From a virus, in IMG/VR virus record IMGVR_UViG_3300047470_000213, positions 1 through 35,649 of that record: a DNA stretch of 35,649 bases; one strand, given 5' to 3'. This document shows positions 14,421 through 27,608 of this stretch, piece by piece (positions within the stretch are counted from its first letter, which is position 1; each line of letters begins with the position of its first letter). Below the pieces are notes generated by a model. That model was not told the DNA's origin and did not search any database. It saw nothing but the letters and a program-made list of their open reading frames with translations. The position numbers and the translations under genes are program-made.

Positions 14421-14734
14421 AGCACTACCTCAACAGATCCAAATTCAACGGTTTTCGCCGTTACCAGGTACTTGCCTGTTCCCTCGCCGAGGATGCGAAC
14501 AGTGCCCGGCACCAGGCGCACGTCGGCCTCGACCAGCAGCTCCAGCTGCTGGATGCAGTCGGCTTGGCGGAAGCGATCGCGCTCGGCCACCATCGTCACC
14601 AGCAGCCCGCTTTCGCGGATCATGTGACCGATGTCCTGGGCGATGCTGGCCCGATCGTCCACCAGCAGCGGCTGGTTCGATGGGTCCAAAGTCAGGTCGT
14701 TATTGGTGATCAGAAGATCGATGTAGAGGCTCAT
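14417..14734 (-). CDS. Baseplate-wedge candidate, DUF2590-like
   Basis: This 105-aa protein begins MSLYIDLLITNNDLTLDPSNQPLLVDDRASIAQDIGHMIRES only in outline similar to gp25/gpW wedge proteins: a short beta start, then a D-R-x-S-I-x-Q-D helix. I recognise it as the DUF2590 type found in HP1/K139-like phages. It sits between the tape measure and baseplate J, where W/gp25 lies in other phages, and overlaps both neighbours as ATGA. A role as the gp25-like wedge component is inferred from position and length. Confidence 0.7.
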   Translation of the reverse strand: MSLYIDLLITNNDLTLDPSNQPLLVDDRASIAQDIGHMIRESGLLVTMVAERDRFRQADCIQQLELLVEADVRLVPGTVRILGEGTGKYLVTAKTVEFGSVEVVL

Positions 14735-16797
14735 CCGCCCACCCCCATCGCCACCATGTTTTCCAGCTCGAGCGGGGTCATCGGCTTGTTGGTATGGATG
14801 TTCACATTCTCGACGTGTGTGCCCTTGTTCTGGTTGCTGGTGTTCTGAATGCTGGTCAACAGCCCACCCCGGGGCACGGCCGTTGGCCGCGACGGTGAAA
14901 GACTAGGAATGGCTGCGTTGATGGGTTGCTGAGCCGGTTGCGATGCACTGGCGGCGTTGGCCACGCGCATAGCTGCATCGATCCCCGGTACTTTCGGCAT
15001 CCCGGGGATTGGTTCATTGATGGTTTGCGGTGCGCTGATGGTGGCCGCGCTCACCGCGGGCTCGACACCTGGTATTTCCGGCATGCCGCCAAAGCGCGCT
15101 TCGATGTTTACGCCCGGGACGCTGTTGATCATCTCGATCAGGCTGTTGATGGCCTTGTAGAAGACGCCGACGATGCTGTCCCAGGCGCCTTTGGCCATGG
15201 CTGACCAGCCGCCCATGGAGCTGAACCAGTCGGAAAGGGTCTTGAACTGATCGCTGACCCACTTAAAGGCGGCGCTGTTCATCAGTGCGGCGGTCCATTC
15301 GTCCCAGTAGTAGACGGCGGCGACCACCGCCGCGACCAGGGCGACGATCCCGACAACGATCAATAGCACCGGGTTGGCCAGTAGCGCGCCGTTGACCAGC
15401 CAGATAGCGGCCTGCCAAGCCACCATCCCGACTTTGACCAGGCCCATCCAGGTGTACAGCAGCACCAGGCCGGCGACGAAGGCGATTGTCATGACGGTGT
15501 GAAACAGGAACATGGCGATGCTGCGGTAGCCGGTCCAGTTCAGCAGCTTCCAGACCGTAAGCATCCCCAGCCAGACCATCTTGGACATGCCTACCGCCAG
15601 GGTCAGCAGGGACATGCCGGCGATGATGCCGAAGATGGTCAGTGCGGTGATGCCGATCACTCGGGTGATGTTGGGAAACAAGGTGACCCAGCGCATCAGC
15701 GCCTTGCCGATCGCCACCATCTTTTCCATGAACGGCGCCAGGACCGGGATCAGCACCTGGCCAAACAAGGCGCGCATGCTTTCCACCAGGGACGTCCATT
15801 GCGCCCAGGGATCGACCATGGCCTTCGCCATCTGCTCGGCACTCTCCAGACCGCGAATCTTGCCCAACTGGTCCATGCCAATGCGCAGGCGATCGGTGTC
15901 CTTGGCCAGCGCCGTGATCACGCGCGCGCCCTCGCCGCCAAATGCGTCGATCAGCTTGGCCCCCGCATTGGCACTGTTCAGATCACCGAACTTGCCCTCC
16001 AACTTGCCAAGGATGTCGAGCATCGGCAGCAACTTGCCGTTCTGGTCGACGAACTTCATCCCCAACTTTTCCGAGGCGCTGCCGATGTTCTCGAAGAACG
16101 ATTTGTAGATGCCGCCGGCATCGCCGCCTTCCATGGTGCTGCTCAGCGAGCCGATCACCGCGAACTGCTCGGCCAAGTCCACACCCGCCGTGGTCGCGAT
16201 CGAGCCGACTTCCTTGAAGGCATCCTTCAACTGCGCGCCATCGGTGCGGAACAGCTTCACCGCCAGCGCGGTCTGTCCGCCCAGCTTCTCGATCCACTCG
16301 GTTTTACCGAAGGCGTCCGCCTGGCCCTTGAACAGGTTGTACATGGTGCCCACGTAGGCGCTGGTGGTCTCCGCATCGGCCTTGGTCGCCTTGGCCAGCA
16401 CATTGCTGGTGTTGGTGATCGACGTCAGCTGGCTGGCGGTCAATCCTTTGATGGCGCCATCGATCGTCGCCGCCGATGCCACAAAATCGCGAGCATTGGC
16501 TGCGTAGTCGACAGAGAACTCCAACGCCTTTTGATTGAGTGCGGCCAGCGCATCTTCAGCCACGCCCAGCGAACTGACCTCGCCCAGGGCGCGGTTCATC
16601 TCAAGGGCTGGTGCCAATGACTGGGTGATCGCCACACCGGCGCCGACCAAGCCGCCCAAACCCAAGCCCATCGTCTTGATGTTCTGTTCGCTCTGCTCGG
16701 CAAGGTCGGAAAAACCCATTTTCACCTTGCCCAGGGGCGCGGTGACCTTGTCGGTCAGGCTCAAGATGAAGGCCAGGCGGGCGGCGCGGTCAGCCAT
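14731..16797 (-). CDS. T: Tail tape measure protein
   Basis: This 688-aa protein has the TP901-type tape-measure core (residues about 70-330: SLGVAEDALAALNQKALEFS, AANARDFVASAATIDGAIKG, EGGDAGGIYKSFFENIG). Next comes a long hydrophobic region (about 340-500) with several membrane-like segments. The final 130 residues are low-complexity, proline- and alanine-rich, ending KPMTPLELENMVAMGVGG. The protein sets tail length and probably enters the host envelope with the DNA. The start ATG follows the stop of the frameshifted chaperone extension by six bases. P2 gpT is longer (about 815 aa), so a somewhat shorter tail is expected. Confidence 0.92.
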   Translation of the reverse strand: MADRAARLAFILSLTDKVTAPLGKVKMGFSDLAEQSEQNIKTMGLGLGGLVGAGVAITQSLAPALEMNRALGEVSSLGVAEDALAALNQKALEFSVDYAANARDFVASAATIDGAIKGLTASQLTSITNTSNVLAKATKADAETTSAYVGTMYNLFKGQADAFGKTEWIEKLGGQTALAVKLFRTDGAQLKDAFKEVGSIATTAGVDLAEQFAVIGSLSSTMEGGDAGGIYKSFFENIGSASEKLGMKFVDQNGKLLPMLDILGKLEGKFGDLNSANAGAKLIDAFGGEGARVITALAKDTDRLRIGMDQLGKIRGLESAEQMAKAMVDPWAQWTSLVESMRALFGQVLIPVLAPFMEKMVAIGKALMRWVTLFPNITRVIGITALTIFGIIAGMSLLTLAVGMSKMVWLGMLTVWKLLNWTGYRSIAMFLFHTVMTIAFVAGLVLLYTWMGLVKVGMVAWQAAIWLVNGALLANPVLLIVVGIVALVAAVVAAVYYWDEWTAALMNSAAFKWVSDQFKTLSDWFSSMGGWSAMAKGAWDSIVGVFYKAINSLIEMINSVPGVNIEARFGGMPEIPGVEPAVSAATISAPQTINEPIPGMPKVPGIDAAMRVANAASASQPAQQPINAAIPSLSPSRPTAVPRGGLLTSIQNTSNQNKGTHVENVNIHTNKPMTPLELENMVAMGVGG

Positions 16798-16803
16798 GTG
16801 TTT

Positions 16804-17255
16804 TTATCCATTCAGAGCATGGGCGATGCCGTTAGCCACGGCGATTTCCATGCGTTTCCAGTGTTCGTCTTCCAGCCACTTGGCCGTGCCCATCACCTCG
16901 GGCGTGGGCTCTTGACCAGGTAGCCAGCGACTGGACAAGGCCAACAGCTGACCTAGGCCGTCCTCGCTCAGGCGCTCAGCGTGCTCGAGGGCTTTTTTAC
17001 GATGATTTCAACGTCCGGCGCGTACTCCTCGAGCAGGGCACCGGCGATCTGCATGGTCATCACCGGGTTGGCCAACAAGGTGCGCAGATCGGCGCGCTGC
17101 TCGGCCACGACGGTGTTGCTCAGCAGGTTGTGGGATGGCGCCACCTTGTTGTTGGCGGTCACGGCGTTGAAGTACTTGGTCACGTCCTGGGGCGTCAGGG
17201 TGAAAGTGAATTCTTGGGCGCCGACTTCCAGGGTGATATCGCGTTTTTCGCTCAT
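16804..17255 (-). CDS. Tail assembly chaperone, -1 frameshift fusion (E+E'-like)
   Basis: A -1 shift on A-AAA-AAG (16998-16992) after lysine 88 leads into an open frame. It reads ALEHAERLSEDGLGQL...MEIAVANGIAHALNG for 62 codons and stops at 16806-16804, six bases before the tape-measure ATG. The fusion is 150 aa; written as a join it is 17255..16992 and 16992..16804. The extension has no plausible start of its own and fills the whole gap between chaperone and tape measure. P2 E/E' and lambda G/GT use the same arrangement, where the long form recruits the tape measure. The pairing CCTCG/CGAGG downstream could form a stimulatory stem. Confidence 0.85.
16968..17255 (-). CDS. E: Tail assembly chaperone, short form (E-like)
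   Basis: This 95-aa protein resembles the putative phage tail assembly chaperone family (DUF2765/TAC type). It has a beta start (MSEKRDITLEVGAQEFTFTLTP), a helical middle and ends EIIVKKPSSTLSA. It lies right before the tape measure, as P2 gpE does, and its ATG overlaps the upstream stop as ATGA. Eight codons before the stop is the A-AAA-AAG slippery heptamer that yields the long form listed separately. The short form is the main product and would coat the tape measure during tail assembly. Confidence 0.85.
   Translation of the reverse strand: MSEKRDITLEVGAQEFTFTLTPQDVTKYFNAVTANNKVAPSHNLLSNTVVAEQRADLRTLLANPVMTMQIAGALLEEYAPDVEIIVKKPSSTLSA
16992..16998 (-). promoter_or_regulatory. Programmed -1 frameshift slippery heptamer A-AAA-AAG
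   Basis: On the coding strand the zero-frame codons are GTA-AAA-AAG-CCC, giving a canonical A-AAA-AAG heptamer as in dnaX. CCTCG starting two bases downstream can pair with CGAGG about 25 bases further to form a stem, with a small inner CGC-TGA-GCG helix. Confidence 0.85.
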
Positions 17256-17509
17256 GTTCTTTTCCGTTGTGGGGGTTGGTTAAAAAGGTGCTGCAGGCGT
17301 TGTTCCAGCCGGTCTTCCAGCTTTTCCATGGCCTTATCGATGTGCTCGGCCCGCACGTATCGCTCGGCGACCTCGATGCGAAACTCCAGGTGCTCACGAC
17401 GGGCCGCGCTGATCTGTTTGAAGAGGTACATCTGAAAACCCACCACACCGGTCAAAACCAGTTCGGTCAGCATCAGCAGTACGCTCACGGCCATGGCTGA
17501 AAGCTCCAT
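17252..17509 (-). CDS. Small membrane protein with coiled coil (holin or spanin candidate)
   Basis: This 85-aa protein has one N-terminal membrane span (about residues 5-27: AMAVSVLLMLTELVLTGVVGF) followed by a charged helical region (about 30-78: EHLEFRIEVAERYVRAEHIDKAMEKLEDRLEQRL), a typical coiled coil. This topology suits an inner-membrane spanin or a small holin. It is the last gene of the lysis-like cluster, starting one base after the DUF1353 stop and overlapping the chaperone gene as ATGA. No other holin is obvious nearby, so it may be the holin. The choice between the two is open. Confidence 0.7.
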   Translation of the reverse strand: MELSAMAVSVLLMLTELVLTGVVGFQMYLFKQISAARREHLEFRIEVAERYVRAEHIDKAMEKLEDRLEQRLQHLFNQPPQRKRT

Positions 17510-17510
17510 T

Positions 17511-17873
17511 TCACGCGCTCCAGTTGCCACGCCCGCCAATCCGGACGGCGGCGTACATCAGCCACGCAAGAGGCTTGGGCATGCCCTCCTCGAGCAAGGC
17601 GTCATAAAAGACCTGGTCAGCCTCGGCCTTGGTAAAGGACAAGGTGCCGTGGGTGTAAATGAAGTCATGCACCACCGACGGACGACGGGCGCACTCGTCG
17701 TCACGCGGGATCAACCACCAGACCGGACGGGGGACGCTGGCCAGATCGGTGCGGTAGCACTTGGGCACCGTCACCAGCTTGTTGCTGGCCGTCAGGTAGA
17801 ACAGCGGCCTGATCAGTTGCCATTGCTTGGTGCCCTTCACGGCCTTCACGACCAGCTCGCTCCTAAAGGCCAT
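17511..17873 (-). CDS. DUF1353 family phage protein
   Basis: This 120-aa protein contains the DUF1353 pattern: a hydrophobic strand region (LVTVPKCYRTDLASVPRPVWWLIP) followed by RRPSVVHDFIYTHG with a conserved H-D, and SFTKAEADQVFYDALLEEGM. The start at ATG 17873 overlaps the upstream lipoprotein gene by 11 bases; a longer upstream frame is a shadow. DUF1353 proteins are common in phage lysis and tail regions, but their role is not established. The conserved His-Asp suggests a possible metal site. Confidence 0.82.
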   Translation of the reverse strand: MAFRSELVVKAVKGTKQWQLIRPLFYLTASNKLVTVPKCYRTDLASVPRPVWWLIPRDDECARRPSVVHDFIYTHGTLSFTKAEADQVFYDALLEEGMPKPLAWLMYAAVRIGGRGNWSA

Positions 17874-18078
17874 CGGCGGCGCACTCCACGCGGATCGTGT
17901 TCGGGGCCGTGTCGCTGGCAATTTGGGTGCGCAGCAGCACGCGCCCGGGCTCCGGCGCCTTGCAATACAACGCCACCAACGTGGAAGCGCTGCGTGCCAC
18001 CACCGCGTGGGTGTCGCTGAAGGCGCAGCCGACCAGGGCGACGACGGTGAACACGACAATCATCAACAGGCGAGTCAT
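17863..18078 (-). CDS. Small lipoprotein, outer-membrane spanin candidate
   Basis: This 71-aa protein has a signal peptide with a lipobox (LMIVVFTVVALVGC, cleavage before Cys18), then a 54-residue periplasmic part with two more cysteines. It follows the endolysin directly, TGA then ATG. This place and topology suit an Rz1-like o-spanin, although Rz1 proteins are usually proline-rich and this one is not. It could instead be a lipoprotein that alters the surface of the lysogen. Confidence 0.7.
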   Translation of the reverse strand: MTRLLMIVVFTVVALVGCAFSDTHAVVARSASTLVALYCKAPEPGRVLLRTQIASDTAPNTIRVECAADGL

Positions 18079-18471
18079 TCAGTAGCTCCAGATCGCAGGG
18101 CTGGGGAATCGGCCACCGGCCGGCGCCATGCCCAGGTGCAGGAAACGAGCGTTACCGCGCTGGCTGATGCCGAAGCGGGTGAACTTCAGGTTCATGGCCA
18201 GGCGCAGGATCTCCACCGCGTCTTCACCACGGCAGCGCACATCAACCGCCAGGCCGGTGCAGTGCTCACCTGGTGCTGGCTTGCTCACTTCCACCGGGTG
18301 TTTCGGGCAGCGGTAGGCGCTGCTCAGCGCCATGGGTCGGCCAAACTGCTGACGCAGGGTCACCAGCTCGGCCATGAAGGCCGGATCCATCTCGGCGCCG
18401 GTGCTGTTGCACTTGCCACATTTGCAGCGCAATTCAGCCGCGGCGAAGTGCGGCCAGGTGATAGGGCTCAT
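18079..18471 (-). CDS. Endolysin, peptidase M15-type
   Basis: This 130-aa protein resembles M15A (D-Ala-D-Ala carboxypeptidase-like) phage endolysins. ALSSAYRCPKHP at 48-59 is the conserved core start. H70 and D77 (GEHCTGLAVDVR) and H112 (FLHLGM) are the expected zinc ligands. No signal peptide is visible, so release depends on a holin. The start ATG 18471 overlaps the zinc-finger gene stop as ATGA; the frame upstream is a shadow. It would cut the peptide part of peptidoglycan at lysis. Confidence 0.87.
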   Translation of the reverse strand: MSPITWPHFAAAELRCKCGKCNSTGAEMDPAFMAELVTLRQQFGRPMALSSAYRCPKHPVEVSKPAPGEHCTGLAVDVRCRGEDAVEILRLAMNLKFTRFGISQRGNARFLHLGMAPAGGRFPSPAIWSY

Positions 18472-18680
18472 CGGCGTTTTCCTTGCTCGAAATGGGATTG
18501 GCACGGTGTGCAGCGAGTGATGCCGCCCAGCGCTTGGCGCTTCTCAGGGATCGGCTCGTCACAGTCCAGGCAATGGCTGCGGCTCGGCCCGGTCGGACGT
18601 GCCTTGGCGAGTTGGGCGGTAATCGCCTGTTCACGCTGGCGTTGTTCCAGCGCCTGGGCACGATCGAACGGGCAGACCAT
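18468..18680 (-). CDS. TraR/DksA-type C4 zinc-finger protein
   Basis: This 70-aa protein has an N-terminal helix rich in Gln and Arg and a C-terminal C4 finger: C37-x2-C40 (CLDC) and C57-x2-C60 (CTPC) with the EPIPEKRQA segment typical of the TraR/DksA family. TraR binds RNA polymerase in the secondary channel and mimics DksA with ppGpp, so this protein may tune host transcription late in infection. The gene overlaps the tail-tube stop by one base (TGATG) and the endolysin as ATGA. Confidence 0.82.
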   Translation of the reverse strand: MVCPFDRAQALEQRQREQAITAQLAKARPTGPSRSHCLDCDEPIPEKRQALGGITRCTPCQSHFEQGKRR

Positions 18681-19129
18681 CAGCGCAGGCCCTCGATCTC
18701 GGCAGCAGCCAGATAAGGCACGCCGTTGATGCGAATGAAGTCCGGGCTGGTGACGTCAAACGGCACCTTGTGCTTGGATTTCTCGGCGCCTTTCGGATCG
18801 ATGCTCAGCAGGCTGGACACCTTCAACTTGCAGGCGAATGCCTCAACGCGCAGTTCCTCTTCGCCGGCCTTGGCAAAGAAAACAATGTCGAATGCCTCGA
18901 ACTCGCGAAAACTGCCGGCGCTGCGTGCGGCCTCGATCAACAGATTGAAGTTGCTGGTGTCGAACTCCATCTCCCCGCTGGCCGCAACGTCACCATCGAC
19001 GTGCCCATTGGGTACGCCACGGCTCTGCGCCACGGCGGTGTTGTCCGTGATATCGATGGTGCAGCTTTCGATGTGAACCTGCAGATCGCCCAGGTTCACG
19101 TCGAAGTTCTTGCCGCCAATACGTGACAT
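18680..19129 (-). CDS. FII: Tail tube protein (DUF2597-type)
   Basis: This 149-aa protein matches the DUF2597 type as I know it from HP1/K139-like phages: MSRIGGKNFDVNLGDLQVH, ITDNTAVAQSRGVPNGHVDGDVAASGEMEFDTSNFN and a C-terminal half with IDPKGAEKSKHKVPFDVTSPDFIRINGVPY, given as landmarks. It follows the sheath gene by six bases, so it should be the inner tube through which DNA passes. P2 gpFII has about 172 aa, and sequence resemblance to it is not evident. Confidence 0.85.
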   Translation of the reverse strand: MSRIGGKNFDVNLGDLQVHIESCTIDITDNTAVAQSRGVPNGHVDGDVAASGEMEFDTSNFNLLIEAARSAGSFREFEAFDIVFFAKAGEEELRVEAFACKLKVSSLLSIDPKGAEKSKHKVPFDVTSPDFIRINGVPYLAAAEIEGLR

Positions 19130-24754: not shown

Positions 24755-26818
24755 ATGTACTACTCAACCGAAGTAAAAGAAGCCGCCAAACGCCTTTTCC
24801 TGCGCCGCTGCAAAGCGAAGGAAATTCAGGCGCAACTCAACCTGCCCAACATTCGGATCGTCTATTACTGGATCCGTCAGGGCGGCTGGGAGGACATGCT
24901 TTCGGACGAGGAGCCGCTGACGGCCGTCAGCCGGCGGATCACTCTCCTACTGGAAAAACAGGCGACCCTTACCAAGGGCGAACTGGACGAACTGGATCGC
25001 CTGACCACCATTCGCGAGCGCTTGGCCAAGCAATGCGCGAAGCCGACTCCAGTTGCGCCCAGCGAGCCGCGGGAAGACGGTGGCCAACGGAGTGACGACC
25101 AGCGCAGCAATCGCCGTGAGCGTGGCGAGCGGGATGGCAAAGGCGGAAAGAAACGGGAGAAGAAGGTCAAGAATGACGTCAGCGACCTGACCGAGACCGA
25201 CTTTCTCGACAAGTTCATCAGCAAGATGTACGGCTACCAGAAGGAGCTGTTTGCCGCCAAACAGAACCCGCTGACGGCGCGGATCCGCAACATCCTGAAA
25301 AGTCGCCAAGTGGGCCTGACTTATTACTTCGCCGGCGAAGCGTTCATGGATGCGGTGCTGACCGGTGACAACCAGGTGTTCCTGTCCGCCAGTCGTGCCC
25401 AGTCCGAGATTTTCCGTAGCTACATCATCTCGTTTGCCCAGGAGTGGTTTGGTCTGGAGCTGACCGGCAATCCGATCGTGCTCAGTAAGGACGGCAAGCC
25501 ATGGGCTGAACTGCGCTTCCTCAGTACCAACAGCAGCACCGCGCAGGGCCACCATGGCCACGTCTACGTCGACGAATACTTCTGGATTCAGAATTTCGAG
25601 AAGCTGAACACCGTAGCCAGCGCCATGGCGACGCACAAAAAGTGGCGCAAGACCTACTTTTCAACGCCCAGCGCGGTGTCGCACCAGGCCTATCCGTTCT
25701 GGACCGGCGAAGGGTTCCGCAACAGCAAGCGCAAGAAGGCGAAAGAGCCTTGGCCTAGCGACCAGCACATTGCCGCCGGCGCGCTGTGCCCAGATGGCCA
25801 GTGGCGCAAGATCATTACCATCCTCGACGCCATGGCGGGCGGCTGCGATCTGTTCGACCTCGAGCAGCTGCAGCTGGAGTACGACGAGGACAAGTTTGAA
25901 CAGCTGTTCATGTGCAAATTCATCGACAGCACGCAGAGCGCGTTTTCCCTGGCGGATCTGGAGCGCTGCTATTCGGACTTGTCGCTGTGGACCGACTACG
26001 ACCCGGACGACGATCGGCCATTTGGCAACAGCCCAGTCTGGATCGGCTACGACCCAAGCCGCACCCGCGACGATGCAACGTGCGTGGTCATCGCCCCGCC
26101 GCTGGAGACTGGCGGCAAATTCCGGATCCTGGAGAAGTACAGCTGGCGTGGTCAGTCGTTCAAGTACCAGGCGGAACAGGTCAAGCGGCTCACCGAGCGC
26201 TTCAACGTGCAGCACATCGGCATCGACACCACCGGCATCGGCTACGGCGTGTTCGACCTGGTGCGCGACTTCTACCCGCGCACAACCGCGATCCACTACA
26301 GCCTCGAAACGAAGAACACCCTGGTGCTCAAGGCACAGGACACCATCCAGCAAAGCCGCATCGAGTGGGACGCCGGTTGGAGCGATATCGCCCAAGCCTT
26401 CCTGACCATCAAGCGCGGCACCACTGGCAGCGGACAGGTTACCTACAGCGCATCACGCACCGACGCCACCGGTCACGCAGACGTCGCCTGGTCGATCATG
26501 CACGCACTGGCCAATGAACCCCTAAACACCAACAAGTCGCGGCGCAGCCGCTACTCACTCACCGGATCCGGAACCCATGGAACGACGCAAAACAGAACAG
26601 GCCAAACCACCGGCGCCAGGGTCCACGCGCATGTTTTCGTTCGGTGCACCCGAGCCGGTCCTGTCGGAGAACATCGCGCAGTACCTCGGCGTATTCGTCA
26701 GTCACGACGGACGCATCTACACGCCTCCGGTGTCGCGCCAAGGCTTGGCCAAACTGCTCAAGGCAAACGCTCACCACGGCGCGATCCCGGGATTCAAACG
26801 AAACCTGTTGCTGCGTGA
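24755..26818 (+). CDS. P: Terminase large (ATPase) subunit (P2 gpP-like), C-terminus runs into portal gene
   Basis: The frame codes for 687 aa, but only about the first 607 look like terminase. An N-terminal HTH lies at about 18-42, an ATPase motif at about 180-190 (KSRQVGLTYYFAG), the Walker B HVYVDEYFW near 270, and nuclease-type acidic residues in IGYDPSRTRDD (about 430) and IGIDTTGIGYG (about 488). P2 gpP has 590 aa. From codon 608 the frame overlaps the portal gene for 242 bases and turns into an Arg/His/Thr/Gly-rich shadow sequence. A stop codon near 26570 was probably lost by mutation, or the read contains an error. The enzyme packages DNA into the head. Confidence 0.92.
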   Translation: MYYSTEVKEAAKRLFLRRCKAKEIQAQLNLPNIRIVYYWIRQGGWEDMLSDEEPLTAVSRRITLLLEKQATLTKGELDELDRLTTIRERLAKQCAKPTPVAPSEPREDGGQRSDDQRSNRRERGERDGKGGKKREKKVKNDVSDLTETDFLDKFISKMYGYQKELFAAKQNPLTARIRNILKSRQVGLTYYFAGEAFMDAVLTGDNQVFLSASRAQSEIFRSYIISFAQEWFGLELTGNPIVLSKDGKPWAELRFLSTNSSTAQGHHGHVYVDEYFWIQNFEKLNTVASAMATHKKWRKTYFSTPSAVSHQAYPFWTGEGFRNSKRKKAKEPWPSDQHIAAGALCPDGQWRKIITILDAMAGGCDLFDLEQLQLEYDEDKFEQLFMCKFIDSTQSAFSLADLERCYSDLSLWTDYDPDDDRPFGNSPVWIGYDPSRTRDDATCVVIAPPLETGGKFRILEKYSWRGQSFKYQAEQVKRLTERFNVQHIGIDTTGIGYGVFDLVRDFYPRTTAIHYSLETKNTLVLKAQDTIQQSRIEWDAGWSDIAQAFLTIKRGTTGSGQVTYSASRTDATGHADVAWSIMHALANEPLNTNKSRRSRYSLTGSGTHGTTQNRTGQTTGARVHAHVFVRCTRAGPVGEHRAVPRRIRQSRRTHLHASGVAPRLGQTAQGKRSPRRDPGIQTKPVAA

Positions 26819-27608
26819 GTTCATCCCGTCTCAGGGCCTATCCACCGCCACCATGAGCCGTGCAGCGCTCGACTTCATGGTGTTCGGGGAAACGTACCTG
26901 TATCGCAAACCCAATGCGTTCGGCCAGGTCCTCGAGATGGAACACCTGCCAGCCATCAACATGCGGGTGAAGATCGGCGGAGGGTTCCTGCAGCTGCTGC
27001 CCGACGGCAAGGAGGTGGAATTCGACCAGGACGAAATTGAACACGTCTTCAACTACGACGTGGAACAAAACATCTACGGTGTCCCGGATTACCTGGGCGG
27101 CCTGCAGGCGCTGTTGCTCAACGAAGCCGCCACCCTTTTCCGCCGGCGCTATTACAGCAACGGCGCCCACGCGGGCTACATCTTCTACACCAACGACCCG
27201 AACCTGAGTGACGACGACGAGGCCGAACTGAAGGCCCAGATCACGGCCAGCAAGGGCGTGGGCAACTTCCGATCGATGTTCGTGAACATCCCCGGCGGCG
27301 CCGAGAAGGCGATTCAAATCATCCCTGTGGGCGACTTTCAGGCGAAGGATGAGCTGGAGAAGGTGAAGAACATCACCCGCAACGACGTCATCGCCGCTTG
27401 GCGAATGAACCCCGCGTTGGCGGGAATCATCCCGGAAAACAGCGCCGGTTTTGGCGACATAGAGAAGATCGATCGGGTGTACACCAGCAACGAAATCAAG
27501 CCGATCTGCCAACTTTTCGAACAGGTCAATGAAACCTTACGACAGGACAGGCGAATTGCCTGGAGAGAGATGCCAGAAACAGTTGATAACACTACATCTG
27601 GTATCTAG
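26577..27608 (+). CDS. Q: Portal protein (P2 gpQ-like)
   Basis: This 343-aa protein matches P2 gpQ in length (344). Landmarks are FSFGAPEPVL near the start, YLGVF, LDFMVFGETYLYR, DEIEHVF, IYGVPDYLGGLQALLLNEAATLFRRRYYSNGAHAGYI and the C-terminal PALAGIIPENSAGFGDIEKI. It forms the ring at the head vertex through which DNA passes. The ATG lies inside the extended terminase frame in another reading frame. Confidence 0.94.
   Translation: MERRKTEQAKPPAPGSTRMFSFGAPEPVLSENIAQYLGVFVSHDGRIYTPPVSRQGLAKLLKANAHHGAIPGFKRNLLLREFIPSQGLSTATMSRAALDFMVFGETYLYRKPNAFGQVLEMEHLPAINMRVKIGGGFLQLLPDGKEVEFDQDEIEHVFNYDVEQNIYGVPDYLGGLQALLLNEAATLFRRRYYSNGAHAGYIFYTNDPNLSDDDEAELKAQITASKGVGNFRSMFVNIPGGAEKAIQIIPVGDFQAKDELEKVKNITRNDVIAAWRMNPALAGIIPENSAGFGDIEKIDRVYTSNEIKPICQLFEQVNETLRQDRRIAWREMPETVDNTTSGI

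Follow-up and report, generated by a model that had tools for sequence, protein, structure and literature searches.

DUF6890 as the probable frameshift-encoded half of the tail assembly chaperone in HP1-like phages

Locus layout and the two reading frames

Does the stretch between the tail assembly chaperone gene and the tape measure gene of this phage encode a second half of the chaperone, and if so, how do ribosomes reach it? The window (the whole 35,649-nucleotide stretch of viral DNA analysed here) comes from a virus whose hosts are Pseudomonas-like bacteria, and its minus strand carries an HP1-type tail operon in the order sheath, tube, lysis cassette, 95-amino-acid ORF and tape measure (Table 1). 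Two overlapping reading frames lie between the tail tube and tape measure genes, the arrangement found in frameshifted tail chaperones, which are a known class, well known in the tailed phages (λ G/GT and P2 E/E+E'). Lysis and DksA-like zinc-finger genes (window 17252-18680, minus strand) separate tube from chaperone, a layout common to HP1, K139 and phi3.

In the zero frame the sequence GTA-AAA-AAG-CCC begins at 17000, close to the 3' end of the 95-amino-acid chaperone ORF, and this places AAAAAAG at 16998-16992 on the minus strand, in the phase A_AAA_AAG. (AAAAAAG occurs five times on the minus strand of the window and three times on the plus strand.) The −1 frame product from 16992, ALEHAERLSEDG...AHALNG, is 62 amino acids long; its stop ends at 16804, and six bases separate it from the tape measure ATG at 16797. 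Joining the zero frame to the −1 extension gives a predicted fusion of 150 amino acids. The first-pass annotation had given the same position and slip phase for the heptamer and the same open −1 frame of 62 codons ending six bases ahead of the tape measure gene, and these readings hold. It had also foreseen that a single-frame gene caller would miss the product, and in public records the DUF6890 stretch is indeed mostly blank or annotated as a separate short gene.

Table 1. Features of the chaperone locus and its presumed partners in the window
Feature	Position in window	Strand	Basis
Tail assembly chaperone, zero-frame, 95 aa	16968..17255	-	PF10963 Phage_TAC_10 (Pfam E 2.8e-21), PHROG 1214 (E 5.3e-33)
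Slippery heptamer A_AAA_AAG, then CCC	16992..16998	-	Direct reading of sequence
Zero-frame stop TGA, starting 28 nt from first heptamer base	16968..16970	-	Sequence
-1 frame extension, 62 codons + stop	16804..16992	-	PF21830 DUF6890 (Pfam E 8.4e-21), PHROG 7050
Internal TTG, the start a single-frame gene caller would pick (46 aa)	16942..16944	-	ORF calling
Tape measure protein, 688 aa, presumed chaperone client	14731..16797	-	PF10145 E 5.6e-26, TIGR01760, PHROG 28
Tail tube protein, HP1 Orf24 family, presumed extension partner	18680..19129	-	PF10772 E 9.8e-58

Both parts belong to curated families. The zero-frame product matches PF10963 at 75.9 bits (curated cut-off 25.7), and the extension matches PF21830 over the entire profile (positions 1-44 of 44) at 73.9 bits (cut-off 23.6). 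NCBIfam has no model for either chaperone or extension, and a sequence search of solved structures with both families gave no significant match. An AlphaFold2 model of zero-frame residues 1-88 (pLDDT 93.6) has as its best solved match 3FGX (Z 9.5, rmsd 2.8, 84 residues aligned), followed by HK97 gp13, 2OB9 (Z 5.2, rmsd 3.2, 76 aligned). Both are called tail assembly chaperones in a paper on Bg_9562 (PMC9603447), and the zero-frame part is predicted from its model to have the HK97 gp13/3FGX chaperone fold. The extension is modelled as a confident helical domain (pLDDT 94.6) whose first helix, residues 2-9, lies right behind the junction; a fold search with this model found nothing significant in BFVD, and its matches in the PDB are all weak helical ones (best Z 3.3). 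Our literature search found no paper that names DUF6890 or Phage_TAC_10.

Elsewhere in the window, the 687-amino-acid terminase large subunit ORF (24755-26818, plus strand) runs about 80 codons beyond the end of its family match (near amino acid 600) and overlaps the portal ORF (26577-27608, plus strand) by 242 bases, whereas the K139 terminase has 605 amino acids. The C-terminal tail of the ORF looks non-homologous, so its 3' end may have lost the usual stop or shifted frame.

Conservation of the slip site and selection across it

We regard a programmed −1 ribosomal frameshift as the best explanation of this arrangement, and as a highly probable one on the sequence evidence. Its products would be a major 95-amino-acid chaperone and a minor fusion, predicted to have 150 amino acids. 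The majority of ribosomes would translate 95 codons and stop; a minority would move one base back on A_AAA_AAG, where two lysine tRNAs would re-pair in the −1 frame, and would continue for 62 codons to complete the fusion.

The first-pass annotation had proposed such a frameshift, and had held that its absence from related phages, as −1 frame or as heptamer, would speak against the proposal. Both are conserved. Relatives were collected from viral contigs, bacterial genomes and phage records. Wherever both parts were found, in 338 related loci altogether, the extension is in the −1 frame, and an in-phase X_XXY_YYZ heptamer is present in the overlap in 258 of 261 distinct sequences, a result that supports the proposal. 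Outside the overlap, 23,707 codons of the frame-0 chaperone genes in these 261 relatives contain 22 in-phase slippery heptamers; at that background rate chance alone would put one in the overlap of about three loci, against the 258 observed. The heptamer is AAAAAAG in 166 of these, AAAAAAC in 81, AAAAAAA in nine, and GGGAAAG and GGGAAAA in one each; the remaining three sequences have, at the same place (around 1720-1760 of their loci), GTA-AAG-AAA (L309 and L310) or GTG-GGG-GAG (L316). One Pseudomonas prophage (L129, 2990-3600) has no extension, as its chaperone gene appears to be cut short, and this locus has probably decayed.

Extension length is likewise nearly fixed: 137 of 139 loci have 62 codons. 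In the 125 distinct relatives whose extension has this length, the majority of them from Pseudomonas, the codons at the heptamer are GTA in 122 and AAA in 124, while upstream of the heptamer in the same genes GTA makes up 4% of valine codons and AAA 22% of lysine codons. In HP1, K139 and the Aeromonas, Pasteurella, Yersinia and ESSI2-type phages (L138, L139, L141, L142 and L332-L335) the heptamer A_AAA_AAC is followed immediately by the zero-frame stop; in the Pseudomonas group, unlike these, that stop starts 28 nucleotides from the first heptamer base.

Protein-level selection passes from frame 0 before the heptamer to the −1 frame directly after it, and the variable sites just past the heptamer are third positions of the −1 frame. 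Over extension codons 8-61 dN/dS is 0.16-0.20, against 1.1-2.3 in the other two frames (the values are pairwise and uncorrected for shared ancestry, though the contrast between frames is large), and constraint is strongest in codons 8-15 (0.06-0.10), none of which is past the usual candidate start discussed below. Both chaperone and extension are under purifying selection.

Alternative readings and stimulatory elements

The −1 stretch could instead be a separate small gene of 46 codons translated from an internal start, the TTG at 16944. It is annotated as a separate gene in phi3, phiO18P, ESSI2_ev239, yong1, F108 and 10N.286.54.E4, and 61% of the 125 relatives have a start codon at extension codon 16. 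Against this, 12 of the 125 have no ATG, GTG or TTG in codons 0-16 and eight have none in codons 0-31; constraint peaks in codons no later than the usual start, which the first predicted helix (residues 2-9) also precedes. Moreover, the annotated internal starts vary in position and codon from phage to phage, and a separate gene offers no reason for a fixed heptamer. The TTG at 16944 is most likely not a real start, and we think it very improbable that the stretch is an independent gene. A comparison of Shine-Dalgarno sequences did not separate the fusion from the internal start (the true chaperone and tape measure starts scored weaker than the internal candidate), so an additional short product is possible.

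If, on the other hand, RNA polymerase slipped on the A run, mRNAs with an extra base would give the same fusion, and most of the sites are in fact runs of six or seven A. Six A, however, is short for polymerase slippage; the ribosomal phase of the site is kept in 258 of 258 cases; and the distant members, with G_GGA_AAG, G_GGA_AAA, G_GGG_GAG or A_AAG_AAA at the same place, have no comparable run. Because these broken or G-containing sites stand in the same phase, slippage by the polymerase is disfavoured, and we give it only a slim chance. The frame offset would look identical if it were a one-base error in a single sequence, or it might mark a decayed gene. Here 338 loci share the offset; they come from many assemblies and hosts, and the sequenced phages HP1, K139, phi3 and phiO18P are among them. 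Purifying selection acts on both parts. Sequencing error is excluded because the relatives share the offset, and we give error or decay virtually no weight. The agent of the slip would be the ribosome, as programmed frameshifting supposes.

Does such a slip have help from the RNA? In addition to its slippery heptamer, E. coli dnaX uses an upstream Shine-Dalgarno sequence and a downstream hairpin; no equivalent of these stimulators was found at this locus, and no Shine-Dalgarno sequence was found at dnaX-like spacing. The dnaX heptamer itself, A_AAA_AAG, is the same as that found here (PMC5009743). The downstream stem that had been suggested as possible can be drawn, but it is not supported: the folding of the 50 nucleotides past the site has z −0.11, matched by 89 of 200 shuffled sequences, and a search of the relatives for conserved pairing near the slip site found none. 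The locus shows no downstream stem near the slip site of the kind that marks a dnaX-type cassette. A small GGCCA...TGGCC hairpin about 30 nucleotides past the heptamer is recurrent in relatives; we rejected it as a stimulator, since it is too distant for a usual one and may be dictated by coding. In P2 and the P2-like Burkholderia phages, chaperone shifts have been reported without such a hairpin (PMC3091744).

In E. coli few sites shift as readily as A_AAA_AAG, with CC as its best 3' context (PMC5009743), and CC follows the heptamer in the window. For two shifted genes in a different phage chaperone cluster, a reporter test gave 6% and 7% (PMC3711429), and by analogy 6-7% is a fair guess at the order of magnitude for this site too. 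Trypsin would cut the fusion exactly between KK and ALEHAER, so the peptide across this junction that had been proposed for mass spectrometry cannot be tryptic, while Glu-C would give the junction peptide IIVKKALE.

Relation to known frameshifted chaperones

The nearest annotated parallel is Pseudoalteromonas phage ACA1 (Peduoviridae, OR438928), whose gp36/gp36a are a homologous chaperone and extension in the same position. Its record has a joined gene with the note 'projected programmed frameshift analogous to that in phage P2', which is no more than a prediction, and the frameshift is not taken up in the ACA paper; the heptamer there is A_AAA_AAA, as opposed to A_AAA_AAG here. Phage HP1 orf26 and K139 orf30 are likewise homologous chaperones with a −1 frame extension behind A_AAA_AAC, left unannotated in both records; these are the phages that the first-pass annotation had named for comparison with the extension. 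The lysis cassette lies between tube and chaperone in HP1 as it does here.

Phage P2 belongs to the same phage family, and its gpE/gpE+E' are made by a −1 shift in the gene just ahead of the tape measure gene, at T_TTT_TTG rather than A_AAA_AAG (PMC3091744); the first-pass annotation had also named a T run for P2. The equivalence with P2 that it proposed stands for position and mechanism, but at the level of sequence hhalign comparison with the single P2 E and E' sequences gave no match for either part (remote homology is possible). The evidence accordingly supports the statement that the locus works like P2 E/E+E', and the two may or may not share common descent.

In phage λ the two chaperone forms, gpG and gpGT, are made in unequal amounts by a −1 shift ahead of the tape measure gene; the G sequence, whether alone or within gpGT, binds the tape measure protein, and T binds the subunit of the tail tube (PMC5009743). 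The λ tail is non-contractile, unlike that of this phage. If the analogy extends to this locus, the tape measure protein would be coated by the short chaperone, and DUF6890, in the extension, would bind the tube protein and so recruit tail tube subunits.

Since the mechanism is known, indeed textbook, and ACA1 is already annotated with it, the present locus is a further case in a known class, and the gain is mainly one of annotation. What is added is a probable identity for DUF6890, the finding that HP1 and K139 share the arrangement, and the record of slip sites of several types within one lineage. DUF6890 (PF21830, PHROG 7050) is most likely the frameshift-encoded half of the tail chaperone, and a curated family of 'unknown function' so gains a role; the missing product can now be added to the annotation of HP1, K139 and dozens of further records that leave it blank or give it as a short separate gene. 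We think it reasonably likely, taking two propositions jointly, that the slip site has been swapped several times in the lineage (A_AAA_AAG/C/A, G_GGA_AAG/A and the non-canonical A_AAG_AAA and G_GGG_GAG), with place and direction kept and no conserved RNA stimulator, and that across the HP1-like phages frameshifting is the main or only source of DUF6890, which forms the tail of the chaperone. The clade is a natural series for learning which slippery sequences suffice without a stem-loop.
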